A stretch of DNA of 48,205 nt. It comes from Glutinoglossum americanum. Taxonomy: Eukaryota > Ascomycota > Geoglossomycetes > Geoglossales > Geoglossaceae. The translations under genes were made by a program, and so were the position numbers. Shown here piece by piece: positions 1 to 46,273 of this stretch (position 1 is its first letter; each line of letters starts with the position of its first letter). Below the pieces are notes generated by a model. It was not told the origin of the DNA, did not search any database, and saw nothing but the letters and a program-made list of their open reading frames with translations. The stretch lies in the NCBI GenBank assembly GCA_020080175.1, contig JAGHQL010000191.1, forward strand, positions 1 through 48,205, given 5' to 3'.

Positions 1-53
1 GACGCCCGCGGCACCCAACCTTCGCGGCCCAGCTTATATAAGCAGCCGTCACA
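1..53 (+). repeat. 3' end of an LTR (family B), cut by the window edge
   Basis: The first 53 bases match the last part of the repeat at 26,758-27,474, including the TATA-like motif AGCTTATATAAGCAGCC. They end in TCACA, where the other copy has TCATA, which fits a C-to-T change in CpA context. Directly after the end, the sequence switches to a reversed copy of LTR family A, so family B inserted into family A here. The rest of the element lies outside the window. Confidence 0.65.
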
Positions 54-550
54 CTCGGCCATTATGCGTTTGCTATCATATATATATATGACCTACTGGC
101 CTCCCACTTGAAAGTTAGCAATCAGTTTTTTACATTTTCTGCCTACTAGAATCAAGTCTATCTCACCTGCTATATATTCTAAGTCAGACTGATGTATAGT
201 CATCCTCAAACTATTGAATCAACCTATTAGTCCTTATATATCTAAGTCTTATCTACATGTAAGTCAAGTAGCTAACCATTGTTGTTGCTATGAGGTGTGA
301 TATTATACTATTATTGAACCTTCCGAAAACTCTTAGTATTGAAGTACCTTTATGTCACCTTGATATTGAGAGTTCTCATACTATTAAATCAATCTATTAG
401 TTCTCATATATCTAAACCTTACCTAGATATAAACTAGTTAACTAGCCAGCATTATTGCTACAAGGTATGACATCATACTATTATTGAATCTTTCAAGAGC
501 TCTTAACATTGATGTATCTTTATATCATCTTAGTATCGAGAGTTCTTACA
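54..550 (-). repeat. Degraded LTR family A, reverse orientation, with internal duplication
   Basis: Read on the minus strand from 550, this begins TGTAAGAACTCTCGATAC and matches the solo LTRs at 897, 1,513, 25,836 and 28,391. The first third of the LTR appears twice in tandem (roughly 205-378 and 379-550), either by local duplication or because one copy landed in another. Its far end is cut by LTR family B at the window start. It is very AT-rich and RIP-like. It is a non-coding fossil. Confidence 0.65.
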
Positions 551-891
551 TAGCATAACTAAAAGTTATTTAATTCTTATATGACTTTATAGAATAATTC
601 TTTAGTATATATACTTTAAATTTGAAATTATTAAAATACAATAAGTTATACTTAATATTTTGTATATTATTCTTTTACTTTCTTTACTTTATAAACTCTA
701 TTAAACTTATAAAGTAATCCTCTGATATTACTTTTTAAGCTTCCTACTAAGTTGCTAAAAACTTGTTCTTAATCTTTTGATTATTATCAGTAGGTTTTAA
801 AAGCTCAAAATAATGTTTATAAATTTAAGTCTTCAGTTATGCTCAAATATAATTAATTAAATTAAAATCTAGTGAATATAAAAGCTATTTC
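551..891. other. AT-rich sequence without recognisable genes
   Basis: About 340 bases of A/T-dominated sequence with long T and A runs and no ORF of note. The base composition is like neighbouring RIP-degraded repeats, so it is probably an older repeat beyond recognition. I see no gene or motif here. Confidence 0.6.
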
Positions 892-896
892 ATAAC

Positions 897-1370
897 TATA
901 AGAACTCTTGATACCAAGATAACATGAAGGTACTCTGACATTAAGAGTTTTCAAGAGGTTCGATAATAGTATAATATTATATCCTACAGTGATGATGATG
1001 ACTGGCTAACTGGTCTGCATCTAGGTAAGGTTTAGATGTATAGGGTTAATAGATTGACTTAATAGTTTGATAGTTTAAAAATAACTAAATATCAACTCAG
1101 TTTAAAATATAAAGTAAGTGTAATAAACTTGATTCTAGTAGGTTGGAGATGTAAAAGAATTAATTATTAATCTTCAGTGGGAGGCTAGTAAGCCACTTAT
1201 ATATATGATAAGTATTTAATAATGAAATAGATATTATAAGGCAATAAAGATATATACTTACAAAATCTATATAATCATATAGGTAAGTTGTTGTTTGCAT
1301 AACCCAAGCTAGTTACCCAACTGTGAAGACCTAAATGGCCTTACTAAATAACTGACTATAAGTTATAACA
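897..1370 (+). repeat. Solo LTR, family A, TSD ATAAC
   Basis: A 474-bp copy of LTR family A, starting TATAAGAACTC (consensus TGTAAG) and ending TTATAACA. It is flanked by a perfect 5-bp duplication ATAAC at 892-896 and 1,371-1,375. It aligns along its length with 28,391-28,862, with mostly C-to-T and G-to-A differences, so it is an old and heavily RIP-affected fossil. No internal coding region remains, as expected after recombination between two LTRs. Confidence 0.85.
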
Positions 1371-1512
1371 ATAACTATAATTCCCTGTTCCACAAACTAT
1401 ATTTTAATAATCTTAACAATATGAATTCTAGTATTGTTTTATATAAATTCTAAATTCAGTTTCTATAATATTAGTAATATATTTTCTAAAACTGTAAGAT
1501 AAACTACTAAAG

Positions 1513-1969
1513 TGTAAGAACTCTTGATACTAAGGCAACATGAAGGTACTTTAATGTTGAGAGCTCTTAGGAGGTTTGATAATAGTGTGACGATGATAGC
1601 TGGCTGACTAGTCTATATCTAGATAAGATTTAAATATATAAGAACTAATAGATTGACTTAGTAGTTCAATAGTTCAAGGATGACTAAATATTAGTCTAGT
1701 TTAGAATATAGAATAAGTAAAATAAACTTGATTATAGTAAGTAAATAATATAAAAGAACTAATTATTGATCTGTAGTAGAAGGCTAGTAAGCTACTTATA
1801 TATATAACAGGTATTTAATAATAGACTAAACCTTATAAGGTAATAAGAATGTATGCTTGTAGAATCTATATAATTATATAGACGAGTTGCTATTTGTATA
1901 ACCTGAGCTAGTTACCTAGCCATGGAGGCCTAAATAGCCTTATTGAGTAACTGACTATAAGTTATAATA
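1513..1969 (+). repeat. Solo LTR, family A, TSD TAAAG
   Basis: A 457-bp family A LTR starting TGTAAGAACTC and ending TTATAATA. It is bounded by perfect 5-bp duplications TAAAG at 1,508-1,512 and 1,970-1,974. It is AT-rich and about as degraded as the copy at 897-1,370, which suggests a similar age. Confidence 0.85.
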
Positions 1970-1974
1970 TAAAG

Positions 1975-2422
1975 TAACTCTTTCTTACTTTGAATCTGGA
2001 TCATCAAACATAAATACAAGCTCTGATTACTTTTTAGTTTCAAATGTATTTCAAACTATTAATAATACTTCTTTACCTTTTTTGTAAAACTAAATAAATT
2101 TTTTTCCTATTTTTGTAAAGGTGTATGAAAAACTCATTCTTACTTTTGTCCAACTCTAAACTTAACACTATATTTATCTAATCAAATATATTTTTTTTAC
2201 TTTTTAAATTCCTAATATTTTCTTTCTTTATACTATCGATAGCATTCTTTAATATATTGTTTAGTTAAAATAAAAATTTTTTAACTAATTACTTTTTTAT
2301 TTCTTGTTTTTTAAGGAAGTGAGTAATTATTTAATCATTATATTCAAAACCAAGCTCTTATTTAACTTGTACATATGTAGCTTTGATATTTTATCTACAA
2401 AATTATATTATATTATATTTTG
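1975..2422. other. AT-rich sequence without recognisable genes
   Basis: About 450 bases of very AT-rich sequence with poly-T and poly-A runs between the solo LTR and the MITE. It has no coding potential or recognisable motif and is probably RIP-degraded repeat DNA. Confidence 0.6.
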
Positions 2423-2424
2423 TA

Positions 2425-2613
2425 ACGTGGTTTATCAGTAAGCGACGAATATCAGTGAGCGACGAACCTTGTACCACCACACCAAAATTTGTATGCGGGG
2501 GTACTTTTTCTGGAAAAAGAAAGTTGTCGCGGAAGTACCCCCACATACAAATTTTGGTGTGGTGTACAAGGTTTGTCGCTCACTGATATTCGTCGCTTAC
2601 TGATAAACCACGT
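2425..2613. mobile_element. Palindromic MITE with about 82-bp terminal inverted repeats, TA TSD
   Basis: A 189-bp element made almost entirely of two inverted arms of about 82 bp, starting ACGTGGTTTATCAGTAAGC, around a short non-palindromic centre near 2,508-2,530. It is flanked by TA on both sides (2,423-2,424 and 2,614-2,615), as for Tc1/mariner/pogo-type elements. Each arm holds a 16-bp motif twice (ATCAGTRAGCGACGAA). The arms differ at only a few positions. It has normal GC although it sits in AT-rich RIPped DNA. It carries no transposase, so it would have to be moved in trans, and its autonomous partner is not visible here. Confidence 0.9.
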
Positions 2614-2615
2614 TA

Positions 2616-3738
2616 AGTCTGTCAAACTTAGAAGGATAGTTACTTTAAGGTAAAGAGTTACTTTTAGGACAGACAGGCAAAAGTTTTATAGTGAATCAGA
2701 TAGTTAACTTTGGTGTTTAAATAAGGCATAAAATCTTACAATTTGAAATACTTGCAAGATGTATTCCTTCCATTACTACATGTTTGTGAGGTAACAATTC
2801 TTTTTTAGAGGTTTTCTTCTGTTTTAAGACACATGCATTAGTACTTTTTGGAGCAAGGGTGGTGCGTGGCATTGGATTGCAAGTATGTGTAGAAGATATT
2901 GTGTTCAGAAGACTCATTATAAATTGAGCGCATTCGCGAAAACTTTTGTCGGGGTACTGTATCTTTAGTTAAATTTAGCGAGTCTTTAACTGAGTTTAGG
3001 TAGTTGAAGCCTAATAAATACCTAACACAACCCCTAAACGAATCGGACATGACTTTTGTAGCATGCCTCTATACAGTGGCTTACGGGACGTTTTTACTAC
3101 CATAAGGAAAATCCACCCTAAGACCAATTTTTTCTCTACAAGGCTAGTAGGCTTTGAAGGCTTTGTTGCATCAGTCCATAACGCGAACCCAATTGCATCA
3201 TCAATTATAGTATTCTGAAGACCTAGAATGTCTCACTATGAATCCGATACTGCTCTAGCGACGCAGGCTCTGACAATTTTCAAAACCCCAAAACAAGAAA
3301 TCGGAGCCTAAGCAAAGCCAGCAGCGGCTTTCAACCCAATCGCTTGTTCTTCCAACGTTGATCTGCTGAACAAAGTTGATATGCTAGATATTTGAACTAA
3401 GCCTAAGCCGAATACATATATTGGGTTCACATTATCTTCCGTATATTGTCCGGCGTTTTGTCAAGCATTTGTTGGATTTGATATAATGCTGGACGTTGAA
3501 GTCTTAGTCATGTCGAAAGGGGTAGGATGCCCCCTTATTGGTGTGCGAAGTACGATAGAAATCTGGCTTTTTGCTGGCGCTCACTTCACCCAGTTGGCGC
3601 CGCTTTAAATGGCGAGGCGGGTGAGCTGGACGCAAGCACACCCGACCACTTCAACCTCCACTCTTCTGGCATCCAATGTTAGTGTTGGAAATAGGACCAG
3701 TGAGTTCCAGGTAGGAAATCAGCCCAGAGTTGGGGAAA
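2616..3738. other. Unrecognised intergenic region, originally upstream of the Ras-like gene
   Basis: About 1.1 kb with two short overlapping minus-strand ORFs (66 and 70 codons at 2,717-3,050) that I do not recognise. They lack features that separate them from chance. The right end (about 3,500-3,738) was contiguous with 8,629 before the Copia insertion. It is therefore probably part of the native promoter of the Ras-like gene. Confidence 0.5.
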
Positions 3739-4074: not shown

Positions 4075-7000
4075 CTCCCACTTGCTGGGTGCCGCTAGAT
4101 ATGAATTATACAGCCTAATAGAGGCCGTATGCTCGTCAGTGAGCCACAAGCCGGCTCTTTGGCAGCGCCTTTGTAAGGCCGTCTGCCAACATATGCTCCG
4201 TAGGCATGTAATCTGATGTAACAATGCCTCTAGCAATTAGATCCCGTACGTGATGGTAGCATACATCAATGGCCTTCATACAGCCATGATGCTCGGGGTC
4301 TTATACAATCGTGAGGCATGCTTAATTGTCGCCATATAATAGAATTGCCTCGTTTTCAAGGTAATTCTTGCGTTCCATGTCCAAACACAGCTGCCGCAAC
4401 CATGCGGCTTCCTTCGCGGCCTCGCTGTAGGCCACATACTCCGCTTCCGTAGTCGAAGAAGTTACCAGAGGTTGCTTCTTGCTTGCCCAATCGATAGCAC
4501 CGCCGGCGAGCACAAACAAGCGCCTGACTGTGCTTTTTCTCGTAATATCTTCAGCATAGTCGCTATCCGAGTAGCCGACTAGCTTCGGGTCTTCTTCTTG
4601 CGTATTGCTATAATGCAATGCTACCATTTTTGTACCCTTTAGGTAGCGTAATAGATGCTTTGCAGCTTTCCAATGTGCTTCCGTGGTGTCATAGTTGAAT
4701 TGTGATAGCCGTCCTACCACGAATGCTATGTCCGGCCAGGTGCCTAGCATAATCCACATAAGCTTGCCAACTAGGTGTTGGTATTGCTCTAGGTCCCAGC
4801 GCGGATCGCTGTCTTGCGCCGGAACTAACTTCTGACCCGGTTGGAGTGGTGTTGTTACCGGCGAGCAGTTTTCCATACCGAACTCTCGCAGCATAGCGTC
4901 AACGTAGTCTTCTTGACTAATTGTAATGGACCCGTTAGGTCCACGAGATATCGCCATTCCGAGGAGGTTCTTACATTCTCCTAGGTCTTTCATGTCGAAT
5001 TCGCTGCTGAGCATCTTTTTGGCCTCGTTTATGGCCTTCAAGTCCTTTGGACCGGCTAATACAAGGTCATCTACATATGCTGCGATTAATACTTTCCCGT
5101 TGTAGTATAGTCCATAGTCCGACAGTAGCTGCTTGTATCCATTGACCACTAAATGGTCCCGTAGCTTCTGGTTCCACACTCGTGCTGATTGCTTGAGTCC
5201 ATATAGACTTTTTAACAGTCGGAGGACCTTACCGTGACTATCGTAGCCCTTCGGTGCCTCCATAAAAATCTTCTCGTCAAGATCGCCAGCCAGGTAGGCC
5301 GACTTGACGTCTTTCTGATGCACAGCTAGGTCCTTGAGTGTTGCCATTGCTAGCAGTAGCCGTATGCTCGCCATTCGAACTGTTGGCACAAAGGTTTGCG
5401 TGTAGTCCACACCGTATTGTTGTGAGAACCCCCTAGCTACTATTCTAGCCTTAAGGCGGTCCAGAGAGCCATCGGGGTGCTTTTTAACTTTGAACACCCA
5501 TTTCGACGTAATCATTTTCCGGCCGTATGGTAGGTCTTCTAACCTCTATGTTCCATTGATATTGAGTGAGTGCAACTCGTCACAAATTGCTGCCTCCCAC
5601 TGCTTGCCGTAGATTGTGTCTCCTACTGCTTCTGAGTAGGTCTTGGGTTCTATTATGCTCGGAATCGCAGAATTGGTACTATCTAGTGCCTTCCAGGTTT
5701 TTTGTCGGATTCTGGTACCTCGCCGAACTACCTGTATGTCTGGAGCATTGTTGGATTCAGCCTCGAGCTGCCTATCCACTTTTTCTTGCTCGCCGGTTGC
5801 TGCTAGCACTTCGTGCATTCGCGCGCTCGACTCAGGGGTTACCCCTGAACCCCCCCTTGAGTGTGGGACTGCAGCATTCTTGCTATTCTGCATAGCTTCT
5901 TGATTTGCTAGGTTTTTTACTTCGTAGTTCGTAAATTCGCCATGGTTCTCCTTTTCCATGGGTTCTTCGTTGTCCGGCAGGTTGGGTAGGCTAGCTGCTC
6001 TTGTAGCCCTGTTTTCGGTGAAGTCAACATGTGTAGCGATGACGATCTTATTGTCTTCCGGGTCCTATAGACGGTAATGGGTAGTTGTATCACCATATCC
6101 TAACATAATGCATTTTTTACTGTTCTCTCCGAGCTTATTGTCACGCCGTACCTTTGGAGTCATGCTGTAGGCATCGTAGCCGAAAGCTCGTAAATGAGCC
6201 AGATCTGACTTCTTGCCCGTCCACAGCTCCTCAGGGGTTTGCTCCTCACCTCGTACGGGAGCTCTGTTTCGTAAGTAGGCCACTGTTTGGATTACTTCCG
6301 GCCATAAACTGTACGGCAGCCTCGAGTCGTTTATCATAGTCTTTGTTTTTTCAATGATAGTCCTGTTGACTCGTTCGGCCACGCCGTTTTGCTTAGGGGT
6401 ATACGGCGCCATTAATTCCATATGGCCGCCATGCCCCTTAATGCATCCCAAAAGTATTTTTAGTTCAGGAGCATTATCACATCGAATTGCCATGACCTTG
6501 TGCCCGCTCTGGGCCTCCGTCTGGCATTGCCACTCCTGAAAGATGCTCGTGGCGTTGCTTTTTGCCTCCGTAGTATATACCCAAGTTTTTCTGGAGTAGT
6601 CGTCCATAATTGTGAGCATATAGCGCTCACCTCGTAGTCCCCGGATCTTGTATGGGCCCCAGAAGTCCATATGCACTCGCTCGAGTGGCTTCGTAGCATG
6701 CTTGGCAACCTTGTAGAAACTCCGTCGGTGTTGTTTGCCGTATATGCATGGCTCGCAGGGCTGCTCGTCCCGTTTGGGCCTCAGGGCCATTCCAGTGACT
6801 GCTCTAGCCACTCCGTTTAGTTGCCCGTACCCAATATGGCCTAGTCTCCTGTGCCAGAGCTCTTGTGGCTCTGTTTTTTCTTGTTTTTTCGTCGTTTTAG
6901 GCTCTTGGGCCTCTGCCGGCCCCGTAAACAGTGCTGTAGGCACTTCATTAGCCCCTATATATGACCCGAGGGCATACAGTCGCCCTACAAGGTGCACGCT

Positions 7001-8285
7001 GGCAACCGTCTTATCATTTCGAGCCAGAATTATGCTTCCGCCCATTTTTGCCATAGTAATTCCTCGGTCTTCAAGCTGTCCCATTGACACGAGGTTGTTA
7101 GCTATGCCCGGAGCATGCCACACATTATGAAGCATTAATCCGTTACTTCGTGGGACTTCTACGTCCCCTCGGCCTACTATTGTGAGTTGCTGCCCATTGG
7201 CAACTTCAACTCGCTACCCCTTTATGGGTGTATAGCTCACAAAATGCCTCTTCGAGCCGGTTACATGGTTGCTAGCACCTGAGTCGATCAGCCAGGTGTT
7301 CTGTGGCATTTTTCCAGACGGTTCATGCGTAGCTAGCATTTTTTCGAGTTGCTCTGAGTCGAATGCTATGCTAGCCTTGCTGTCGGTGCTGGTATTATCG
7401 TCACCATTACCATTATTGCCGGAATTCTTCCTTTGCTCCCGTTTCCATATGGTACAGTCTCTCTGGATGTGTCCTGCCCTCTTGCACCGGAAGCACTCCC
7501 GGGTCTCGGTTTGGCCCCCTTTTCTGAAGCCCTTCTTGCCCGGTCTCGTGGCAGTGCTCATGGCTGTGCCTTGCTGCTTCTGAACGTTTTCTCGACGTAG
7601 TTCCTCATGCCGTAGTCTTTTTACGGCCTCATCGTATGTCAGGTCCGGCGTAGCTTGCATGTGTGTGACCATATGGTTATATTCACTTAGTAATGCGTTG
7701 AGAAGCAAGCATATCTTAAATTGCTTCCAACGCTGTTCCGGATCCTGGTGTTTAACATTCTCGATTTCATACCAATGCTCTTCTAGCTTCTCGTTGAGCT
7801 CCTGGATGCTCGCGGCACCGTTTGCATGCAGTTGCATCACCTGGACCATAATGTAGTAGAATGCTTGGTCGCCTGTAGGCCTGTGGATGTCCCGTAGCTT
7901 TTTCCAGGCCTCCGTGGCGTTCTTAATGCTCCAGATTGCTTGGTATTCTGAATCCTCGAGTGAGCCGGCAATTATAACCAATGCTATACCATTTAACTTC
8001 CTCCATTCGAGCTTTTCTGCCAACGTTACTCTGTCTCCGCTGGGCTCCCTTTCTTCACCGCTAACGATGTCCCAGACGCCTTGGATTTGGAGTAGTATTT
8101 CCGTTTTTGGCTCCCAATTGGCGAAGTTCTTCTTGTTGAGTCGTGGTTGTGTGTAGGTCAAGCGTAGACCTTCAAACGTGCTTGCTCGCATTTCCGTTGC
8201 AGCGGTCGAGGTGCTCTGTGAAGAGCTGCTGAAGGCCTCTCCCGTCGATCCTGGACCGCGGGCAGCCATTCCTCGAGTCCTAACT

Positions 8286-8300
8286 CCCGGGCTCATAACC
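8286..8300 (-). other. Copia primer-binding site matching initiator tRNA-Met anticodon stem-loop
   Basis: The plus strand next to the 5' LTR reads CCCGGGCTCATAACC. This closely matches the anticodon arm of eukaryotic initiator tRNA-Met (GGGCTCATAACC). Drosophila copia is known to prime from an internal fragment of this tRNA cleaved in the anticodon loop, and this site fits that mode. The presumed gag start codon (8,294-8,296) is the complement of the CAT anticodon in this site. Confidence 0.7.
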
Positions 8301-8693: not shown

Positions 8694-9265
8694 ATGATGC
8701 TATACAAATTGGTTGTTCTCGGAGAAAAAGGTGTAGGGAAAACGGAGCTGACAATTCAGGTTGGTCATTCTTATGGCCCCCACCTACCTAGCTAACCAAT
8801 TTGTAGCTTTGTTTGAACCATCTTGTCGAAACATACGATCCTACTATAGAGGGCTCTTACCGAAAACAGGTTGTCATCGATGGCGAATCGTGTATGCTGG
8901 AAGTCCTCGATACGGCGGGCCAAGATGAATACGCCGCGCTACGAAACCGGTGGGTCAGAGATGCCGAGGGATTTGTGATAGTCTTTTCCATTACAGACCG
9001 TTCGTCATTTGATCGCGTTGTAAAGTTCCACAATCAGATTCGATCAGTCAAAGAGGTCCAAGGGACTATCTCGAATTATTCGGCCATGTTGGCAGGCAAC
9101 AACTCACATCAAGTCACTAAACGAGAAGTCTCTACTCAAGAAGGCATTGCACTTGCCCGAGAATTGGGATGCGAGTTCGTGGAATGTTCAGTCAAGAACT
9201 GCATAAACGTTGAAAGAGCATTCTACGACGTTGTCAGACTCTTACGACGAATGAGGACTCAGTAA
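8694..9265 (+). CDS. Ras-like small GTPase, divergent paralogue (2 exons)
   Basis: Exons are 8,694-8,759 and 8,807-9,265, with a 47-bp intron (GTTGGT...GCTAAC...TAG). They give about 174 residues. Exon 1 encodes the P-loop GEKGVGKT and exon 2 continues LCLNHLVETYDPTIE, as in fungal Ras. Switch II DTAGQD is kept with its Gln. Unlike true Ras, the G4 motif NKxD reads NNSH, the G5 SAK reads SVK, and the protein ends RRMRTQ with no hypervariable tail or CAAX box. Guanine specificity and membrane anchoring by prenylation are therefore doubtful. A second ATG at 8,697 could also be used. It is probably a duplicated Ras gene that is decaying or has changed function. The Copia insertion cuts its promoter 70 bp upstream of the start codon. 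Confidence 0.82.
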
Positions 9266-14503: not shown

Positions 14504-17500
14504 TCAATTGTGCAGCCTTCTCCGCGCCCATGAGTCATGCCGTTGATACATGGCTTCCGCCTTCGCGAGTTTGTCCTGGTCCCTGTAGAGGCTGCCCAGG
14601 TTGTGGACCGTGTTCAGCGTCGATGTGTGGTCGGGGCCGAGCGCCTTCTCGTACCCGGCCAGCGCCCGATCGTACATGGCCTCCGCTTTCGCGAGTTTGC
14701 CCTGGTCAGAGTAGAGGCTGCCCAGGTTGTGGACCGTGTTCAGCGTCGATGTGTGGTCGGGGCCGAGCGCCTTCTCCTTTCCGGCCAGCGCCCGATCGTA
14801 CATGGCCTCCGCTTCCGCGAACTTGCCCTGGTCNNNNNNNNNNNNNNNNNNNNNNNNNNNNNNNNNNNNNNNNNNNNNNNNNNNNNNNNNNNNNNNNNNN
14901 NNNNNNNNNNNNNNNNNNNNNNNNNNNNNNNNNTGTGGACCGTGTCCAGCGTCGACGTGTGGTCGGGGCCGAGCGCCTTCTCGCTTCCTGCCAGCGCCCG
15001 ATCGTACATGGCCTCCGCCTCCGCGAACTTGCCCTGGTCAGAGTAGAGGGCGCCCAGGTTGTGGACCGTGTCCAGCGTCGACGTGTGGTCGGGGCCGAGC
15101 GCCTTCTCCTTTCCTGCCAGCGCCCGATCGTACATGGCCTCCGCCTCCGCGAACTTGGCCTGGCCCCTATAGAGGGCGCCCAGGTTGTGGACCGTGTCCA
15201 GCGTCGATATGTGGTCGGGGCCGAGCACCGTCTCACGTATCGCCAGCGCTTCTGCTAACTTACCACATGCTGCTTTGTGCTGTCCTTGTTTCCTATTATA
15301 ACATCCTTCATTATTCAGAATGCTTGCACGTTGTAACAGACAGGGTGTCCTTTGGAAAGTATATCCCAGCACAACCTGAACATGTGGGTTAATAGCTCTC
15401 CAGGCTGCCCAATTCTCGTATTCTCCATCTGAAGGGCAACATTTGGACACCACATCCAACGCCTTTTCTTGCCATTCCACTAGCACGTGCTGACGTTTCA
15501 ACCATATCTGTGTCGAAAACTGTAAAAGTCGATGCATTCCAAACATTTTGCCCCCTTGTTCTTCAGTAATCAAAGAAAAAGCTTTTAGTGTCCCGATAGC
15601 AGTGATAAATTCGACTTTTCGCTCATCGTCATTGCGGAGAAGCGCGTCTGAAATCGCTTGTCGGTCCAAGGCGGCCATGAGAGAGAGTATCTCAGCAGCC
15701 CGTGGCTTCTGCTTCCTTATTTGGTCGAAGGACAACTCCCATGCCCGAAACACCGAGTTCGGTACTCCCACGTCTCTCCCAGGGTCAGGTAGATCCTCCT
15801 CCAAGATGTCCTTTGTATCTAGGTTACCAGCTTGCAGCATCTCAAGATATTCTGCGATAGTAATTCCATTCTCACTGATAAAAGCTGCTGCTTGCGTTAT
15901 GGGGAGAGCTAGATAGTTCAGGGCTTTCACAAGCCCGGTTGACGCCGCCTTATTCAATCCATCGCTCTCTGGCAGTTTACATTGCAACAGGTACTCCGCA
16001 TCTACCGATGTAAATGGTAGCACTGGGATCGACTTCTCTCTGTCAGACAGTCTCTCCCCGACGCGTCTATCTCTTGTTGTAATTATAATCGAGCCATTCG
16101 AGCTTCGTGGTAGGTAGTTGACTAATGCTGCTGTGGGTTGGTATTCGCTTTGGTGCGACGATGTGTGAGGGCCAGAGCCAAAAAAGGCCTCCATATCATC
16201 AGCATTATCCAACACCAAAAGCCAAGGGCCACTGGCATCATCGCTAAGCCATTTGTAGACAAGTTGAAGTGTATTGGTATCTGGATCATCCAGGCCAGGA
16301 AGAGTAAGTTCCCTGGCAATATCTTTGTATGCTTCCTCAAATCTGGCGCTGTTGCTGGAGTGGACCCAGAATACCTGTGCCTTGGGATGACTGTTTCTAT
16401 ATTTGTAACAGTACTCGATTGCGATCCGAGACTTCCTGTAATGTATTTGTTATAATTATGGCAAAGAAGGATGGAGTGCATGACGTATAGTTGAATCTAC
16501 AGCAATAAGACATGAAGCAAGTTTGCCTACCCAACGCCCCCAATTCCAGTTATAGCCACACGACGCTGGCCCATCTTGAGTCTTTCACCTATTTCCTTCA
16601 TGATGTCTTCACGACCTATAAAATTTCGATCACTATTGAATTTCACCATGAAGCAAGTCTTCCGGGATGGTGTTTCTGAATTCAGCATCGGTTGACATGG
16701 CTCGACCTTAACATCTGACCCGTGCGTAGCCAAACGGAGTGGCCTGATCCACCTCCGAAGCTCTCCTAGTATGGCCTTGTAGCCACTGTCATTCGAACCC
16801 GCAAATTTTGTCATATCCTAAGCCCCTTAGCAATACTGTTGCCATTTAGAAGGACAAGAAGTCGCATTCACCATGTGGTTGGCATGAATTCCATAGTGTT
16901 CGTATCCGGGCAAGACTGCTGAATGCTTGGGAACAACCTTCAATGGGTTAATAAAGACAGCCAAACTAAGGAAATGTGACACAATACTTCACCAACTACC
17001 ACGACCGACAGTTCTTCGAAGAAGCAAGTGATGGCAATCTCTGTGCCTTCATTGATCCTCAATCTTAAAATGCTGTGGAATCCATCTTGAATATTGGCCA
17101 GCATTTCTGACCCGGGCTTCAAGACGGAAACAATGTCTGCGTTTGCACGCTTGACAATATTCGTAATATTTGTACCAAACTTGGCCCAGCTTGCAATATC
17201 AGCTCCGAAGTGCGGGGTTCCGAGAAATGCAATAGCCATTGTGCAGTGTCCCACCCGCCGAATATGCTTGTCCGGGCTGGTTCTGGAGAGGCATAAAGCG
17301 TTCTGTGTCACCAAACCGCCAAGGCTATGAACTACGAACACGATTTTTCGATTTTCCTGGACAGCAACATTACTGCGAGCATGTTAATTGGTAGCTAGGT
17401 GCTGCTTACCGAATCCGTTTGCTCCCTTTGACGTGCCAGGGCCCCAAGTATGTTCTTTGCATGGTCGCTTATTCTGTTCTGGGATGCAGGATTCCAGAAA

Positions 17501-17900
17501 TTAACAACATCGGCGTCATATCCAAAAGAGAGAATACGAGCATCGTCAATATCTTCGCTGAGCAGGCTGGCAGGCCAATACGACCCGGTTTTCTTGTCGA
17601 GCCATGTATCACTGGAACTGCCTGTCAGGCCGTGGACAAAAACGATGCTATGATCACCACGACATTGTCAGTAGACCTCGGGGGAATATTAAGGTTTGGG
17701 TGGCTGTCTTACTCGACGACGGTGTCTGAGTGGTTAGGTGGTGTATAGATATTCTCCAGGCCATATGCTGTCCCCGCCTTTATGCTCACAGCCTTTGAGC
17801 TTCCCCCGTTGCTCTGGAGGTCAGTTTCTGCTTTTCCTGTGGTTTCTCGATTCTCGTCGGTTGACCTCTTTTTCTTGCGAGTAAGAAGCCTTAACATCAT
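14504..17900 (-). CDS. NLR-like receptor: serine esterase (DUF676/SesB-like) - NB-ARC - TPR repeats
   Basis: Six exons: 17,900-17,713, 17,647-17,410, 17,356-16,988, 16,937-16,872, 16,817-16,531 and 16,435-14,504. All introns are GT-AG, 50-95 bp, and phases agree. An alpha/beta-hydrolase domain starts near residue 64 (IVFVHGLTG) with nucleophile motif VVHSLGG (Ser153). The NB-ARC domain has P-loop GIGGVGKS (378-385), Walker B LLVLDNADD (455-463) and IIITTRD. From about 755 there are kinesin-light-chain-like TPRs of 42 residues (MYDRALAGKEKALGPDHTST), nearly identical to each other. A 100-N gap (14,834-14,933) interrupts the array and the frame changes across it, so length and repeat number are unknown. 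The last repeat degenerates to QRHDSWARRRLHN, perhaps by frameshift. Such proteins are known fungal incompatibility or immune-type sensors. The ligand is unknown. Confidence 0.87.
14540..15245 (-). repeat. 126-bp tandem repeats encoding TPRs, with assembly gap
   Basis: Units of 126 bp (42 codons) are repeated about three times on each side of a 100-N gap at 14,834-14,933. Copies differ at only a few bases, and the two sides form two subtypes (HNLGALY/LDTVH versus HNLGSLY/LNTVH). The round gap length suggests that the assembler could not resolve the array, so the true copy number is not given here. Confidence 0.9.
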
Positions 17901-18048: not shown

Positions 18049-18548
18049 CAGCTACAGGTGTTTGCGAGCTTATTTTGAAAGTCTTGGCATTTCTGCTTTT
18101 AAAAACCATCGCCTCGCTGGATGCACTTCAGGTCAATTGCCAACTACAAATTCATTAGAGCACTTGTTTCTTTATTGTATTATAATGCTATATGTGTAAA
18201 CCTTTCCTAGACCAATTAGTAGGATGTCTTAAGCTGTTGTAGTTAGCCCCTACAGTGCGAGGCGGAATGTAGGTACCTTAGCAGCATTTTTGCTTGGCAT
18301 TTGGTGCGATTTTGCCGCATACTTTTTGCCCCCCATTGAGGGGTTAATTACAACAAAAACATGCCTAATACACCCTACCAATTGGCCTAGGAAAGGTTTA
18401 CACTTATAACATCATAATACAATAAAGAAACAAGTGGTCTAATCAATTTGTGGTTGGCAATTGACCTGAAGTGCATCCAGCGGGGCGATCATTTTTAAAA
18501 GCCAAAATGCCAAAACTTTCAACAAAAACTTGCAAACAGCTGTACCAT
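18049..18548. repeat. Long imperfect inverted repeat (about 180-bp arms)
   Basis: The arm at about 18,049-18,232 and the reverse complement of about 18,361-18,548 align with roughly 85% identity by eye. They share GGATGCACTTCAGGTCAATT and the stretch around GTGTAAACCTTTCCTAG. The spacer is about 130 bp. Both arms lie inside convergent ORFs (17,928-18,158 plus; 18,439-18,705 minus) that end in similar peptides (KVLAF.LLK.IA.LDALQVNCQ). It may be a degraded transposon end or a duplicated gene 3' end. No target duplication was found. It sits in the 5' flank of the NLR gene. Confidence 0.65.
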
Positions 18549-21679: not shown

Positions 21680-24450
21680 ACGTATTTGACGGCGAAGTTG
21701 CCGGACCCCGCGAAGTTGCCGCTACGCGAGATACCTCCGGGACCCTACCACAACCACAACCCCAAAATCAATTCCAGAGCTATGGTTCTAGAATTTTGCA
21801 TAGACGTTCTGTAGTATATAGATTGCTTAAAAATGAAATTTGACAGGAAATAGACAACAATTGCATGCATAGTATGCAAATTCATAAGGTAGCCCTAATT
21901 TTCTTTCCTAGCCCTAGACCTTGTTACCATACCAGTATGTGACGCACCCCTACTTGGCCCAGCTCTAAGGACCTTCTTCAGCCTCTGGATATTGAATTCT
22001 GATACTTCAGAGACCTCAGAATCAGAGCTATCAGAAGATATAACCATCGCTTTAAGGCCAATATTTTCTATATAAAGTTAGAATGCTTTAAACCTATTAA
22101 ATGGTAAACTAACCTTCTGAGTCTGATACCTGAGTGCCAGATTCACTTCCTGATGCCATTGGATCTTTAAATGGCACTGTAACCTTCCTAGTTACCCTCT
22201 TGCCCTTACTTTTCCCCGTCCCCTCCCTCCCCCCCTTTTGATTCTTTTTAGCAGCTACCTTAGCAAGTTCCCTCTGCTTTGCGTCATACTCCTCTAGAGC
22301 TTTATTGACATCATCTTGAGTCATCAATTTAGCATATCCTTGCTGCTTCTTGTTGATCCTAACCCTACTCTTTTGGTAGTTTGCTTTCATATTAAGGCGC
22401 TTTTTTAAAAAAGCAGTCTCATGCTTAGCAACAGCTTCCTGCACCTGAGCCTGTATTCCAGACTTGCTTAGCTTCTCTAAAGCACTCAATAGAAGCTCCT
22501 TGGGACCATCTTGAAGTACTAGCTGCTCAGAGTACTTCAATATCTGGCGAAACTCATGTGACTGCTTAGGGGTTTTGATAGCCCTAGCTGGTGATTGTAG
22601 CTTCTTCTGGGGGATGATGCCCTTGTCCAGTCTACTCTGAACCTTTCTTCTATCATATGGCACTAGTCCAGCGCCTGCCCAAGCTCCTTTGATGTTCTGA
22701 GGGGTGTAGGTGCGCTCCCTAGCTTGTTGAAGTAATGGGATGAAGTCTTCTCTGGATATAGCTGGATACCCTCCCTTAAACCACTCAGCAAGTAAGACCC
22801 CATAGTAGCGCTGCAGAGGACCAAATAGACCAATGTCTAGGGGCTGGGTAAGGTGAGTTGAATGTGCTGGAAGTACAAATATCAAAATCCTATGTCTCCA
22901 AGCAAAGTCAAGGAAGAGGTAATTGCAGTGAGATTCATGGCCATCTAGAAGAAGAATGTGCCATTCTAGAGGTCCTCTATATATGGTATTAACTATAGGG
23001 TGCTGTGGTATAGTGTGGAGGTGCTGCTAAGAAAGGGAGGGCGGTATAAGGAGGGGAGGGGGTAAACTTACTCAGGGTATGTTCTAGGCTCAAAAGTATG
23101 TTCCAACCACCCTAACCCAATCTCATTTGATGTCCAGCCCTTAGGAGAATGTCCATAAACCCATCCAGGACCTCCTTGACCCCTAATATGCGTTCCTCTA
23201 TAGTGGTTAGCTCCCTTTATGACTACCAAAGGGGGCAATACCACTCTCTCAGCAGACATACACTCCAGTACAGTTATCAGCTCTCTGTTACCGTCCTGAG
23301 TGTACTTGGGATTCTTTCTACCCTTCCTGCAAATCACCCTACACTTAGCTGATATCCCTAATAGGAAGCCCTTCTTATCCATATTTCAGATATTAGCCTC
23401 CTTAATCTTATACTCCTTCAGCATCTTATGCTACAACTTGAAGTGATGCTCTAGTACTCTAGGGTTGCTAGCAGCACTTCTTTGGTATTCTAGGTGCTGG
23501 CTGAACCTAACTTGAAGCTCTGGGTAGTGCTTAACAAACCTATCCAATCAATGCTTTCCCAGAGAGGTTTTAGGCTGTGACTGCTGTATTATAGCCAGGA
23601 CCTTGTCTCTGACAAGATCCAAGCATGGTGGAATACCTCTATCATCTTGCATACAGATCCACTGGACCAATGCTTGCTCCTGTTGGGGGTTAAGGAGGCA
23701 CTCATGAAGATGTGCTTTTTGGCGCTGCTGTCTCCCCTTATTCTTTCTATCACGCAAGGTCCTCTCTGCCACATAGAACCTCCTGGCTGTTAGAGGAAGG
23801 GAAAGCTTTGGTTGGAGGCTCAGTTCCTTCAGAGCAGCCTGTAGTCTGTCCTCATAGTCCTTATCTTGCTTAGAAGGCATATTTATAACTTCGTGAGTTT
23901 ATAACTTTTGAAGGAGAAGAGATATGGAAAATCTGAGGTCATCATGCGAATCTACAGGTAAAATTGACCCTAGGACAAATCACATATGTCCATGTGCTGG
24001 CGTTGTGAGGTTGGATAGTCAAGCAAAGAGATACATATCTAGTTGTATATACTTGCAGATACTAGCCCTAACCCCTTTGGTAGCACCCTATTATTTTTGT
24101 GCCTTTGCAGTTAGTAGGCTATACTTTTCCCAAATTCGCTAATAGGGTCTATTTGACCTTCTTATAATAGCTGGAATTGATTCTATTAGTTTTGAGTTCA
24201 GCCCTGAGCTTAGGGGGGGGAGTATGCTAAAAGGGGGTCGCTCAGGAAATCACCATACCCCACCACCAATTCTTGATGCACTGATCTAATATTTTGTTTT
24301 TTAATTATTTATATACTAGACTAGCTCCTATTAAATTTTTAGGACTATCGGTCAAGGATTGACTTTGCCACAATTCAGCGTGGTGTGGTTGTGATGGTGT
24401 TTGCTTAGTGGTAACTTCGCAAGGTCTGGCAACTTCGCCGTCAAATACGT
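21680..24450 (-). mobile_element. Pogo/Fot1-like DNA transposon, copy 1, TA TSD
   Basis: 2,771 bp with inverted ends of about 40 bp (ACGTATTTGACGGCGAAGTT...) and TA on both sides (21,678-21,679 and 24,451-24,452). The minus strand encodes a Tigger/pogo transposase. N-terminal Psq/CENP-B-type HTH starts MPSKQDKDYEDRL at 23,880. The DDE core shows NMDKKGFLLG (near 23.4 kb), LLLDGHESH (near 22.95 kb) and FVLPAHSTHLTQPLDIGLFG. A basic C-terminal tail ends near 22,109. Three stops between about 23,550 and 23,380 lie where Trp is expected (TGG to TGA/TAG), a RIP signature. A GTAAGT...TTAG segment near 23.03-23.07 kb may be an intron, though the frame does not join cleanly. It is inactive as it stands. 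Confidence 0.9.
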
Positions 24451-26757: not shown

Positions 26758-27474
26758 TGTTACAGTGGCCACCAGGTAAGGGCTTGGTAGGCCACCAAAT
26801 AAGCTAAGAAGGAGGGCTAGCCCTGAAGAAGGCCGGCGGAGCATAGGGAGGGTCTACCCTATACATAATACACTAAGCCGGTGACATACGAGGGGGGCCC
26901 GCAAGGCCCCACCAATGACGTCATCATAGGAACTCCACATGGGAGCACAGCCAGCAAAGGAACCATACGGGCATTATAGAAACTCCATATAGGAGTACGG
27001 CCGGCGGCGAAGGAACCATATGGCATCATAGGAACTTCACATAGGAGCATGACCGGTGGCGAAGCAACTGCACGAGCATCATAGGAACTCCACATAGGAG
27101 CATGGGCAGCGGCGGAAGGCATGACCGGTGGTGAGAGGACCACATGGGCATCATAAGGACTTCCCAATGGAAGTACAGCTGGAGGCAAGAGGTCCATACG
27201 CATCCATGGAGGGAACCAGACAGGTCTCTACTCATGGGTCTCTCAGGGCCATTAGTATATATAGAAGGCCGAGGAGAGTCCGGAAGGGAATCTCATCAGT
27301 CAATACCATAATCACATTAGATAGACTATCAAGAACCATTAGGCCTACCCTTCCATCGTGCCACACAGCTGGCCCCCCCCTTGCTCCATCATGACTAGCT
27401 TCTTAAGGCTAGCTCGGCCTTGATGCCCATGGCATCCAACCTTCGCGGCCCAGCTTATATAAGCAGCCATCATA
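26758..27474 (+). repeat. Solo LTR, family B, inside pogo copy 2, TSD GGAAG
   Basis: 717 bp, starting TGTTACAGTGGCC and ending GCAGCCATCATA. It has perfect GGAAG duplications at 26,753-26,757 and 27,475-27,479, and copy 1 lacks it. The end probably was TCACA, as in the copy at 1-53. A TATA-like motif (CTTATATAAGC) lies near the 3' end. Its interior holds about five degenerate units of about 50 bp. No protein is encoded. An LTR is the best reading, and a non-autonomous element is the alternative. Confidence 0.75.
26925..27200. repeat. About 50-bp subrepeats within LTR family B
   Basis: Five degenerate units, each beginning near CATCATAGGAACTCCACAT and carrying AGGAGCATG.CCGG, follow one another with spacing of about 50-70 bp. 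Such subrepeats are common in LTR U3 regions and may act as transcription-factor sites, but that is inference. Confidence 0.65.
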
Positions 27475-30183: not shown

Positions 30184-33100
30184 GCCCATTGTTTCCTCGT
30201 CTCCTGTTGTTTCTTTTCCTGTATTTTTAGTTGAATGAAGTCTCTTTGGGGTCAGTTTCTTGCCTTCTGACCTCTCATTCCTCCTTGCTCGTAGCTGTGC
30301 TCTTTTGTTGTAATTGTCTGTTTGTTCTTAGGTCGTAGCTTGTCTAGGTAGTGGTCATGGAAGGCTCGCACTTCCTCCTAAGTATGCTGTAGGTTCTCCT
30401 TGGGTTCCTACAATGTTTTAGCCATCGTGAAGCCTGATCACTTTACTTTATATTCGAGTCTCGAGCCCCACCCCCACCTTCGGATCTGGCTATCGACTAC
30501 TTCCTCGACTTCCTATTCATCCTGTTCCTCGACTGTGACTGGCTGTAGGACCGCTTGTGTGGGTCGGTCCGAGGCCGTTTCCTTGTATGGTTCAAGCATC
30601 GAGATGTGGAATACCGAGTGTATTCTCATGGTTGGCGGTAGGAGGAGTTTCCTTGCATGTGTCCCTACCTCCTTATCTATTGTGAATGGGCCGAGTTTCT
30701 TATTCTCGAGCTTGGCCAACAGTCTCGTAGTTCGTATGTTCTTACTTACGAGCCATGCCTTTGTCCCTGGTTTGAAAGAGGAGGTCTTTTTGGATCGTTT
30801 TTTGTTGTAGTACCCTGCTTGCTGCTGTTGAGCTTCCTCGAGCATGCTTCTTAGTGCCTTATGCATTTCCTGGATCATTTTTATTCATTCTTCTGCCGCG
30901 GGTACTACGTATTTGTCTCGAAGGGTGACCCGTAGCCATGGGTGGTATCCGTATAATGTGTAGAATACTAAGTGTCTCGTGCTTACTTGTTTGGCGTCGT
31001 TGAGGCAGAACTCCCCTAGAGGAAGCAGTTCGACCCAATTGTCCTGTAGGTAGTTGTTGTAGGCTCGTAAGTATTGTTCTATTGTCTGGTTTGTACATTC
31101 TGTCTGTTCGTCGGTCTGAGGGTGGTATGCTGTTGAGAACTATTGTTCCGTTCCTAGTTGCTCGCTCAGAGCTCTCATAAATTTACTCGTGAAGGGTTTG
31201 CCTTGGTTCGTGATGAAGGTGTTAGGGATGCTGTGGCGGGACACTATGTACTGTAGGAAGAGGTACGCGAGCTGTGGGCTCGACATCGCTTCATGGCATG
31301 GGATGAGGTGTGTGAATTTTGTGAAGTGGTCTACTACTATTAATATTGAGTCGAAAAGTAGGCCCTCCAGGTTCATGGGGTCTCTCGAGGGTAGAAGTTT
31401 GATGACGAAGTCTATGGTAATCAAGCTCCATGGCTCATTTGGCACTTCTAGGGACTTAAGGGTCCCGTAAAGTTTGTGCCGTGAAGCCTTCGATCTCGAG
31501 CACACGTCACACGAGTCTACATAGGCTCAAGCATACTTCTTTAGGTTCTAAAAATCGTAATTTTTCAAGATTAGCTCAATGGTTCGGTTGCGGCCATGGT
31601 GTCCCGCTATTTGCACGTCGTGATGTTTCCTCAGTACTTGTGTTCGTAGCTCACAATTGTCCAGAATGTAGATTAGCCCCTTGTGTAGGAGGAGTCCGTT
31701 GTTATCTATCTCCCACTCGGGGTTTGTTTCAGCTTGAGGATCTCTATGGGTTTGCTCGAGTGCCTCTTTGCAGGTTTGGTCTATGGCATAAGCTGCCTTA
31801 ATCCTCGATACCAGGTCTCGTTCTGGAGCGAAGGTGGTGGTAGTTAGTATGGCCGTGAGGTTTAACATCTGTCCTGGTTTTATTAGCGGTAAGGGAGGTT
31901 CCTTTTCTATAGGTCCTCAAGCTGGGAGGTAGTTAGGTCTGCATGATAGGATGTCTGCTTTAGTATTCTCCCTGCCTGGGTAGTGGATTATAATGAAGTT
32001 GTAGCTTCCGAGCGTCTCAGCCCACCAGGCTTGTCGTCTATTAAGGACCTTCAAGGTGGTGAAGCGCTCTAGGTTCTGGTGGTCCGAGTATACCGTTGTA
32101 CGCTCGTGGACCCCTTCTGGGTATACCCTCCATTTACGGAGGCACTCCATGATCACGAGCATCTCCTTGTCGTAGATTTCATAGTTTTCCTCTGCCAGGA
32201 TCATTTTTCTACTGAAAAATACAATAGGTCTCAGGATCATGTCCTGATGCTGTGAGATGTAGTCTGCTATCGCTCCATCAGAGGCGTCTACCTCAACCGT
32301 TGCTGGCTTCGTTGGGTCGAAGTGGGCTAGGAACCTTACGACTAGGAAGGATCTCTTTAGTTGTTCAAAGGACTAGTTTGCTTCATGCATCCATATAAAC
32401 TTTGCGTTCCTTTTTAGAAGATTAGTCATCCCGCGGGCTATCCGACTATAAGCCTTGATAAATCGTCGGTAGAAGTTCGCGAACCTTAGAAATGCTTGTA
32501 GTTCTTTGATCGACTTCGATATTGGCTACAAGGTTATGGAGTTGACCTTAATGGAGTTCATCCTAATCTCCTGTCGGCCGATGATGTAGTCCAGGAATGC
32601 GACTTCGGCCTTGTAGAACTCGCACTTCTCGAGGTTGACGTACAGGTTTGCTCCAGCCAGGCGCTTGAGGACTTTTTGGACATGTTAGATGTGCTCCTCT
32701 AGAGAGTCTGAGAAGACAATAATATCATCTAGGAATGCCACTGCATAGTAGTCCAGGTACTCCTTAAGTATGTCATTTACCAGGGCTTGAAACGATGCTG
32801 GGACATTTGTAAGTCTAAAGGACATAACTCGGTATTGGAAGTGGCCGTAGCAGCACCTGAAGGCTGTCTTCCACTCTTCACCCGCTCTTATCCTGATGAG
32901 GTTATATGCTCCTCTAAGATCGATCTTGGTAAAGTATCAAGCCATCCCTATCCTATCGAGTAATTCCGGAATTAGGGGTAGTAGGTAGCGGTTCTTGATA
33001 GTGATTGCATTGAGGGCCCTGTAATCTATGCACATTCGTAGCCTCCCATCTCCCTTCTTTGCGAATACTACAGGCGAGGCGGCGGGCAAGGTCGAGGGTT

Positions 33101-44161: not shown

Positions 44162-46273
44162 ATGAAGTTTTCTTCCACTCTTGGGCTGGCATGCCTCTTG
44201 CCAGGCCTCGTCGTTGCCCTCGTCGGCATCGACACTCACCCGTTCAGCCCGCCTTGTGCCTTCGCCTGTGGCCGAGCTATCGCGTCCAACATGCTATCGT
44301 GTTCCGTCCATGATGCTTCGGGCGGCCACATGCATGGCGGTCCCGCGATGACAACCCCTCAGTGTCGAGCGGGAGATACAGCTTACCTGACTACTCTGGC
44401 CTGGTGTATTAGCACCAAATGTGCCCAATACCATGTCCCTTCTTCGAGGCTGGAGAAGTACTGGGAAGAGCAGTGCACAGGGGATCCGGCTGTGGCCCCA
44501 AAATGGGACTACTCGACGGCGCTTCACAACATCACGCAGCCACCAACTCGAGAACTGGCTAAGGATGACGTCCTCGACTTTACCGCGCTCGCTTCTGGGG
44601 CTGCCTGGGACATGCAATTTCGTACGCTGGCGTTCCTTGAAGATGAGGAGGCCTTGCACGCGAGATATGGGTATGGCGTCCATCCACGTACCATCTGCGC
44701 GAACCACTAACCTCTCGAATCAACTAGGGTCGCCATCCTCGTCACAGGCTTCGCCATACCCATCGTACTTACATGTCTGGGCTATCTTCCGTACATGACT
44801 GGCATCCTGGAAAGAGTAAAGCCGTACCTCGTTTACCCAAGTGCCATTGGGACCTACCAGGTGCGCCCTCTTCCATACCTGCTTGGCAATGCCCCTACCA
44901 TCGGCCAGAGCCTATACGTCGCCCTCATGGTCATCCTCAACATCATTCTGACCGCAGTCAACTACAGGTCCACGCAGCCCCACGCGTGGTATGCAAACCA
45001 GCACCAGGAGGTCATGGCCTACGTCATGTACCGCACGGGTACCATAGGGTTTGCGCTAGCTCCTCTTGTAATCCTCTTTTCGTGTAGGAATAATATCCTA
45101 CTATGGTTAAGCAATTGGCCGCATTCAACTTTCATGCTGCTGCACCGTTGGGTAGCCCGCATCTTCGGGATACAGGTCCTCCTCCACTCCATCCTCGCGC
45201 TAGCGCTGTACCGCGACACAGGCGAATATCCGGCAGTGGAGAAGCTGAAGTACTGGATCTGGGGTGCCGTTGCCACTGTCGCTGTTAGCATCATGTTGGT
45301 TGCTAGTGGGCTGTACGTGCGACGCTGGTCGTACGAGATCTTCCTGATAACACACATTGTGCTGGCTGTCCTCGTCATCGTCGGCTGTTGGCACCACGTC
45401 GAACTGGAGTTCCACCGTCAGTGGGGGTACGAAATGTGGCTGTATGCAGCATGCGCGGTATGGTTCTTCGACCGGATGGCGCGTGTGCTACGGATCTTGA
45501 AGATAGGCGTACGTCGCGCTAAGGTGGCCAACGTCGGCGACGGCTTCGTCCGCGTCGATATCGAGGGTATCCGCTGGGGTGCTGCGCCTGGCCAGCATGT
45601 CTACGTGTACTTCCCGACGCTTAACCCGCTGCGACCCTGGGAGAACCATCCGTTCTCGGTGCTGCCAACGGAGATGCTGCGCCTGTCCAACCGTAGCACA
45701 AGCGCAAGGAATGGCGACATACCATCGGAGCATAATGACGCGGAGAAGCACGGGGGAACCGCGGTACGAGTGAGGACTGCACTGGACGACAATACTACCG
45801 CTGGTCTGACGCTATTCATCAGGAAGTCGACAGGCATGACCAAGTCCCTGAAGGCTCGTGATAGCCTGTTCACGCTTCTGGATGGGCCCTATCCGAGCAG
45901 CCCGGCCAAGTCCGTCCTGCGATGTGATCGGTTACTGCTCATCGGAGGAGGCATCGGCATCACGGGGCTCCTGCCCTGGATAAATAGCCATTCAAACGCT
46001 AAGCTATGCTGGAGTGTGAAGGAGACAGCGGAATGCCTCGTCCAGGCCGTGGATGGAGCGCTGAGCAGGGCTAACGAGAAGGATGTGAGGGTGGGGCGGA
46101 GGCTGGATATTAGTGCGCTGCTAAGCCAAGAGGTGGATTCTGGATGGGCCAAGATTGGTGTTGTAGTATGCGGGCCGGGAGGGCTCTGCGACGACGTCAG
46201 GGCAGCCGTTGCCACGACTGGGAAGAAGGGAAAAGCCATTTTTGAGCTCGAGGTGGAAGCGTATTCTTGGTGA
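44162..46273 (+). CDS. Ferric reductase-like transmembrane protein (FRE/NOX superfamily)
   Basis: Exons are 44,162-44,670 and 44,728-46,273, with a 57-bp intron (GTATGG, CTAAC, TAG), giving 684 residues. It has a signal peptide (1-22, MKFSSTLGLACLLPGLVVA), then a Cys-rich extracellular part. The ferric-reductase membrane domain has bis-heme histidines His308/His322 and His379/His393. FAD-binding motif HPFSVLP is near 477, NADPH-binding GGGIGITG near 576 and CGPGG near 650. All key residues are present and the length is normal. Such proteins move electrons from cytosolic NADPH through FAD and two hemes to reduce Fe(III) or Cu(II) outside the cell before uptake. The start was chosen for the signal peptide. 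A further upstream in-frame ATG (44,144) gives a less typical leader. Confidence 0.92.

Follow-up and report, generated by a model that had tools for sequence, protein, structure and literature searches.

Fungal NOD-like receptors (NLRs; NOD, nucleotide-binding oligomerization domain) that join a SesB-like domain, an NB-ARC domain and tetratricopeptide repeats (TPRs) are already known, as illustrated by Podospora anserina Pa_2_10340 (PMC4986451; this and the other articles cited were available in part, and statements on them refer to those parts). The gene considered here displays the same tripartite architecture. It was found in Glutinoglossum americanum, an earth tongue and geoglossomycete ascomycete, on the minus strand of contig JAGHQL010000191.1 (assembly GCA_020080175.1) at 17900-14504. 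The whole stretch analysed, hereafter the window, takes in that entire contig (48,205 nucleotides), which is C103 in our genome-wide numbering; homology search identified FGG08_006515 as the deposited counterpart of the gene. In NLRs of the Pa_2_10340 type, TPR units show more than 85 % internal identity, are mostly 42 amino acids (aa) long and carry concave variable positions, as here; there, several strains served to show that repeat number is polymorphic and that individual sites are under positive selection, whereas the present data stem from one genome (PMC4986451). Unlike in the Pa_2_10340 type, the esterase and the NB-ARC of this gene come from different NLR types.

Three further systems are comparable. 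PLP-1 also combines a lipase-type N-terminus with NB-ARC and TPR; it binds a partner and self-associates, and its cell death activity needs both the patatin domain and the ATP-binding motif (PMC12881547). It differs from the present gene in bearing a patatin and not a SesB-like alpha/beta-hydrolase, and in having an established partner, SEC-9 (PMC12881547). The Podospora HNWD genes het-d, het-e and het-r likewise contain near-identical repeats that defeat short-read assembly, and some of their repeats are common to genes with divergent other domains; they differ in their HET effector, NACHT domain and WD40 propellers, and in that allorecognition was proven by genetics (PMC12222747). Within the genome of G. 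americanum, SesA/HeLo-like NB-ARC-TPR NLRs on contigs C29 (FGG08_005335), C52 and C263 display NB-ARC domains 67-72 % identical to that of the gene, similar DNA in the P-loop intron and a related array, but have a SesA/HeLo-like N-terminus and no esterase there. Peltula P0220 and Trichoglossum hirsutum P0226 carry a related esterase, with NACHT and ankyrin repeats (ANK) instead of NB-ARC and TPR.

The gene is a fungal NLR of the SesB-like/NB-ARC/TPR kind. It probably originated by an esterase swap, possesses a homogenised array and would mount a lytic or defensive response upon binding a ligand. A first-pass annotation, based on the letters of the DNA, had proposed the extent 14504..17900, the order lipase-like/NTPase/TPR as in fungal NLRs, and an intact catalytic Ser and P-loop; all of these were confirmed. 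The start codon ATG lies at 17900 and the stop codon at 14506-14504. The six exons are separated by five introns of 65, 53, 50, 54 and 95 bp, all five with GT-AG borders, and the parts of the gene are as follows.

17713-17900, minus strand: exon 1, with the start codon, a basic N-terminal peptide and the esterase start, followed by a GT-AG intron (17712-17648)
17410-17647, minus strand: exon 2, esterase domain (IVFVHGLTG...), by DUF676 match
16988-17356, minus strand: exon 3, with the elbow HSLGG (17329-17315) and the Ser153 codon (17326-17324)
16872-16937, minus strand: exon 4, 66 nt, in frame, encoding VVPKHSAVLPGYEHYGIHANHM, with the likely catalytic His286, by conservation among homologs
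16531-16817, minus strand: exon 5, esterase end, linker and NB-ARC start up to GIGGVG
16655-16698, minus strand: domain-swap junction, by linker likeness and paralog DNA likeness
14504-16435, minus strand: exon 6, remaining NB-ARC, with Walker B (16221-16195) and MHRLLQ (15537-15520), TPR array, gap and stop
14504-15279, minus strand: TPR array, by tandem repeat and unit search
15279-15154, 15153-15028 and 15027-14934, minus strand: degenerate, full and partial TPR unit, respectively, 5' of the gap
14834-14933, no strand: 100-N assembly gap, the sole N run in the window
14821-14696 and 14695-14570, minus strand: two full TPR units 3' of the gap, followed by the final helix and the stop

Assignment to a SesB-like alpha/beta-hydrolase follows the DUF676 match at aa 64-229 (32.8 bits, Pfam cut-off 20.3); such domains were pooled with the hydrolase annotations of Pfam in PMC4986451. 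NB-ARC matched at 28.4 bits (cut-off 23.5), and TPR_10 at 111.9 bits 5' and 94.9 bits 3' of the gap; TPR_10 and TPR_12 each exceeded 94 bits on both sides, above their cut-offs. The 126-bp units form C-terminal superstructure repeats of the usual 42 aa. The nucleophile elbow HSLGG with Ser153, the P-loop GIGGVGKS (interrupted by intron 5) and Walker B (LLVLDNADD) are all intact. Some homologs bear the name 'Protein SERAC1' or 'Kinesin light chain' in their annotation. The ten-unit array of contig C191, a paralog, folded alone into a regular helical TPR array (pLDDT, the predicted local distance difference test, was 93.5 in the best of five and 39.8 in the lowest), and its top Foldseek matches were kinesin light chain TPR structures with modest TM-scores. 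A housekeeping role as SERAC1-like lipid enzyme or kinesin-light-chain-like adaptor, which such likenesses would suggest, is nevertheless hardly credible for a protein with an NB-ARC, a P-loop and homogenised repeats, from a family expanded in this genome with differing N-termini.

A basic stretch, LLTRKKKR, precedes the esterase (17900-17713). Many homologs start in a likewise basic manner (MRRLFRRR, MLSSLRRVFRSK), and the stretch is possibly a membrane or organelle signal.

As judged from its NB-ARC, the gene is a chimera: this domain groups with the SesA/HeLo-like type and not with other esterase NLRs. It was 73 % identical to those of P0002 (same genome) and P0003 (Trichoglossum), both with a SesA/HeLo-like N-terminus, and 42-49 % identical to those of seven lichen NLRs with a similar esterase. 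In the NB-ARC tree (33 rows, of which the C1 row filled just 14 % of columns) it grouped at 100/99 with six SesA rows plus an unassigned row, while uniting it with six esterase NLRs of lichens was rejected (log-likelihood 134 lower; P value of the approximately unbiased test, p-AU, 1.7e-53). The SesA domain PF17107 is located just upstream of the NB-ARC in the three nearest paralogs (C29, C52 and C263); no match to it was found in the gene by Pfam search or on C103 by genome scan. The partial C1 row belongs to FGG08_000110 (P0130; L013, C1:377828-382246), in which NB-ARC and TPR occur together with a protein kinase domain; it grouped with the esterase-bearing NLR P0013 and is perhaps another N-terminal swap.

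The junction itself was narrowly delimited. DNA likeness to the three paralogs of SesA type (C29, C52 and C263) sets in at 16664, 16678 and 16655 and continues at 70.7-77.6 % through intron 5 to ~15281. From the esterase side, the linker IRPLRLATHGSDVKVEP shares 13 of its 17 residues with P0226, which scored 65 against 37 for the runner-up among 302 proteins, and the part common to the Trichoglossum esterase NLR ends at 16698 (SDVKVEP). Linker end and paralog-like DNA therefore bracket the join by 16698 and 16655, that is, within ~45 bp. Assembling NLRs that contain such repeats from short reads is unreliable (PMC12222747) and the present array is gapped, which could suggest that two NLR genes were wrongly joined here during assembly or annotation. 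This is very improbable, however: the junction lies within a single open exon devoid of N, frame and splice sites are intact, and the esterase-side linker extends past the domain as in the Trichoglossum homolog. Moreover, other esterase places in the assembly reached at most 53 % identity (79 places listed) and none of the 21 SesA matches was on this contig.

The esterase probably came from an NLR of the NACHT-ANK type, as favoured by the linker, although this source is less certain than that of the NB-ARC. Among the best 120 of 338 matches of an esterase-only search, the nearest rows by tree path were P0220 and P0226. The Peltula esterase (P0220), borne on a NACHT-ANK NLR, was 72 % identical over the domain. 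That of the T. hirsutum NACHT-ANK NLR (P0226) was 68 % identical over the searched region and 61 % over the domain, the latter value being lowered because its model is devoid of the His exon. Esterases from Lobaria and most of those from Lasallia were 64-68 % identical, about like P0226. An alternative source would be a lichen-type (Lecanoromycete) esterase, possibly acquired by inter-class transfer, in place of a geoglossomycete NACHT-ANK NLR. In its favour, a first esterase tree placed the domain with five lichen rows (support 99), identity to Lobaria esterases over the domain is 66-68 %, and the test did not reject a clade uniting it with all nine rows of the lichen group (p-AU 0.0502); Peltula is closer, however, and the linker fits Trichoglossum far better than any lichen protein compared, so that a lichen source appears unlikely. 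Grouping with the four lichen NB-ARC/TPR rows gave a p-AU of 3.6e-9, which is not decisive because these rows form no clade, Lasallia NACHT rows being placed between them. Neither the donor nor a reciprocal product was found in the assembly, where the NACHT of P0226 had a best match of 50 % among full-length places and esterase matches elsewhere reached at most 53 %.

The deposited model looks wrong at two places. It fuses VVVVGE to DMTKF (VVVVGEDMTKF) and so omits the exon at 16937-16872, and it passes from TLDT to GKFAEA, the N gap being treated as an intron. Exon 4 is open, has canonical GT-AG borders and fits a conserved motif. Its last His (His286) was kept in 99 % of 99 aligned homologous esterase domains (10 of 109 matches, namely P0001 and short ones, were left out), and the position of Ser153 was occupied by Ser in 79 of these rows, 14 of the remaining ones having a gap. 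Models without this exon do occur: among the 99 homologs, P0018 lacked the whole stretch while P0091 and P0110 lacked most of it but retained NHM, and the deposited model of T. hirsutum P0226 (M1813_009369) is also without the 22-residue His exon. A catalytically dead or purely regulatory esterase, as implied by these models, is yet quite improbable in view of the open, properly bordered exon and the conservation of both residues. Overlooked short exons would be the simple reading, with real exon skipping as a possible alternative; unless skipping is real, the same annotation slip seems to have affected two earth-tongue genomes. A search of the PDB with the esterase yielded a single weak match.

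The first-pass annotation had also reported near-identical, homogenised 126-bp repeats around a 100-N gap, in agreement with the results obtained here. Tandem Repeats Finder returned 2.3 copies at 92 % and 2.4 copies at 93 %, flanking the N run. A total of 214 units were found in the unit search; those scoring below 100 were dropped from identity and later comparisons, which removed the degenerate first unit of this gene, plus C46, C155 and C195 among others. The mean identity of its three full high-scoring units was 0.889 (aa) and 0.915 (nt), and the partial unit before the gap was 0.87-0.97 identical to full units (aa). Repeats of high internal conservation (HIC) are defined by more than 85 % identity over at least 100 aa, a class comprising 21.2 % of fungal NLR TPR repeat domains (PMC4986451). 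The above mean, taken over three full 42-aa units, falls within this definition, with one pair at 0.833. In a tree built from 11 arrays (68 distinct units, identical ones collapsed), units clustered by array, with 13 label changes against a shuffled mean of 49.9 and a possible minimum of 10. Units are homogenised inside arrays, displaying the concerted evolution of HIC NLRs.

Across the 100 N, unit anchors are 206 bases apart. Given units of 126 bp, the true gap therefore measures 20+126k bases, a length that keeps the reading frame whereas 100 does not. The 100 N would thus be a placeholder; the smallest solution gives five TPR helix pairs (counted by hand), and further units may be hidden in the gap. 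Such gaps seem to be systematic in this assembly, because eight of 31 TPR arrays stop within 126 bp of a contig end, where uniform placement expects ~0.1 (hand-compiled list, restricted to arrays with known contig extent). The array at the C29 end, which is among these eight, is a possible artefact: C29 ends in a second TPR array, and the copy analysed (78,130 bases) may be cut there, the record of FGG08_005335 (P0002) having 80,832. In Podospora, high-identity NLR repeats were recovered from long reads and not from Illumina assemblies (PMC12222747).

Variable positions in the units of this gene are 1, 3, 15, 28, 35, 38 and 41; five of these seven also belong to the 12 positions that vary most in the other arrays (hypergeometric P 0.014). 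L33-G34-Y37 of the unit was set on what we take to be the canonical TPR residues L7-G8-Y11, whereby unit positions 28, 31, 35, 38 and 39 become canonical 2, 5, 9, 12 and 13; in the pooled arrays, each of these five ranks among the top nine of the 42 positions for variability. Canonical positions 2, 5, 9, 12, 13, 33 and 34 are the most variable in TPRs and all lie on the concave face (PMC1261162). The variable positions would accordingly include the concave face, a placement based on the published numbering. Positive selection at a few fixed unit positions, which the first pass had named as a sign to look for, received partial support. Variable sites include TPR positions known to face the ligand. 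Sites were counted under a model free of recombination; against the global synonymous rate, six were nominally significant, with positions 15 and 38 (two of 42) passing correction. In contrast, a per-site test resembling single-likelihood ancestor counting yielded one nominal site and none of 42 after correction. Formal evidence of positive selection is weak. A pairwise nonsynonymous excess was considered as a sign of such selection and set aside, the per-site parsimony count giving no support after correction.

Arrays appeared to be related across remote NB-ARC lineages. The NB-ARC of this gene was 20-24 % identical (26-34 % in local matches) to those on C191, C23, C146, C166, C300 and C151 (partial in C166 and C300), with synonymous differences of 0.72-0.76, near saturation; mean synonymous differences between the arrays were just 0.33-0.48. 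The corresponding array difference for C266, which has a 52 % identical NB-ARC, was 0.58. The proposition that array relatedness follows NB-ARC relatedness was dropped (Spearman 0.04, P 0.63; 120 mutually dependent pairs of 16 genes). The array thus seems to share synonymous history with arrays attached to NB-ARCs of 20-24 % identity. Codon bias accounts for part of this likeness: arrays are mostly rich in GC at third codon positions (0.60-0.89 in related ones), and related arrays whose synonymous codons were shuffled still share 0.39-0.57 of codons. That codon bias plus protein constraint, and not shared repeat descent, produced all of the likeness is rather doubtful. For 12 of the 17 arrays compared, codon identity position by position was higher than in any of the 200 shuffles; in the distant pairs, the synonymous sites of the NB-ARC are nearly saturated. 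No such excess was seen for C286, C109, C241, C7 and C266; these five are the fairer control, as repeated units inflate the z-scores of shuffles.

Shared repeat descent would imply that arrays moved between genes. Any such transfer must have been rare or old because units cluster by array. Podospora het-e and nwd6 have two identical repeats in common while their other domains diverge, and therefore provide a precedent for transfer between genes (PMC12222747). It is conceivable, though we hold this only tentatively, that two joints serve for shuffling receptors in this genome. At one, a short linker, N-terminal effectors would pass between bodies of NACHT-ANK and NB-ARC-TPR type; at the other, TPR arrays would pass between NB-ARC lineages of 20-24 % identity, where only the repeats retain synonymous history.

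For the gene itself, the following course may be proposed. An esterase with its linker, probably of NACHT-ANK type, would have taken the place of the SesA/HeLo-like N-terminus in an NLR of NB-ARC-TPR type, after which the array would have evolved by homogenisation of its 126-bp units. In the resulting protein, the TPR superhelix would bind a ligand through variable concave positions and the NB-ARC switch would exchange nucleotide and oligomerise. The clustered esterases (Ser153, His286) could then attack membrane lipids or another ester, resulting in a lytic or defensive response and, presumably, in a role in non-self recognition. By analogy, the gene likely follows a PLP-1-like logic. SesB-like domains are predicted lipases related to SERAC1 (PMC4986451), and a role in cell death was reported for them, more indirectly (PMC9815663).

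Several observations weigh against this proposal. The ancestral N-terminus is not resolvable inside the NB-ARC clade, which is why the direction of the swap was deduced from the SesA majority. In the esterase trees, the Peltula branch had supports of 98/80 in one tree and 93/45 in a smaller one, and the branch uniting Peltula and Trichoglossum 92/73 and 76/51; the clade with all nine lichen rows, as stated, narrowly escaped rejection. Of the Ser-His-acid triad, only Ser153 and His286 are pinned down. Finally, just three full high-scoring units could be compared in this gene, the lowest pairwise identity being 0.833 (aa).

The NLR is embedded in transposon-rich DNA, which includes the following features.

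18053-18544, no strand: inverted repeat outside the gene, ~150 bp before its start codon; arms of 182 bp, 88 % complementary
4325-5545, minus strand: RVT_2, Copia-type piece
6068-7213, minus strand: integrase core and gag_pre-integrs, Copia-type piece

The inverted repeat resembles miniature inverted-repeat transposable elements; elsewhere in the genome it is matched only in part, over short stretches (C24, C272 and C251). Copia-type pieces extend over 4325-8299 on the minus strand in several frames, and fragments of a DDE_1 transposase (22112-23026) and of a reverse transcriptase/RNase H retroelement (31920-32372) were also detected. Positions 1-3000 of the window resemble DNA subjected to repeat-induced point mutation (GC 0.28, TpA/ApT 1.27, (CpA+TpG)/(ApC+GpT) 0.83); the high-identity array, by contrast, displays a GC of 0.66 and a TpA/ApT of 0.86. 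A 53-bp tandem repeat (26922-27119; 3.8 copies, 75 % matches) lies within an open frame at 26862-27227 on the minus strand. Ordinary neighbouring genes or exons encode a Ras family protein, a ferric reductase and a methyltransferase (8807-9262, 44711-46270 and 47086-47898). A plasmid search gave no match.

Exchange of the N-terminus on NODs that are almost identical has been described, one example being a pair with HET in one member and SesB-like in the other, on NB-ARC/TPR (PMC4986451), so the process of swapping is known; repeat exchange among fungal NLRs was also described before (PMC4986451, PMC12222747). A swap between NACHT-ANK and NB-ARC-TPR bodies was not met in the available parts of PMC4986451. 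Literature searches that covered few subscription journals, and hence give a weak negative, found no NLR paper on Geoglossomycetes in the one search aimed at it and, judged by title, no paper on the Glutinoglossum genome in another. What is new here is a swap in the class Geoglossomycetes, possibly across NOD classes, whose junction is placed to tens of bases; one of its source types is firm, the other probable. For users of the annotation, caution is indicated, as a residue that is likely catalytic is missing from the deposited model and TPR-NLR arrays are often cut in this assembly. If receptors are indeed shuffled at two joints, a given binding array could be re-coupled to another output domain.

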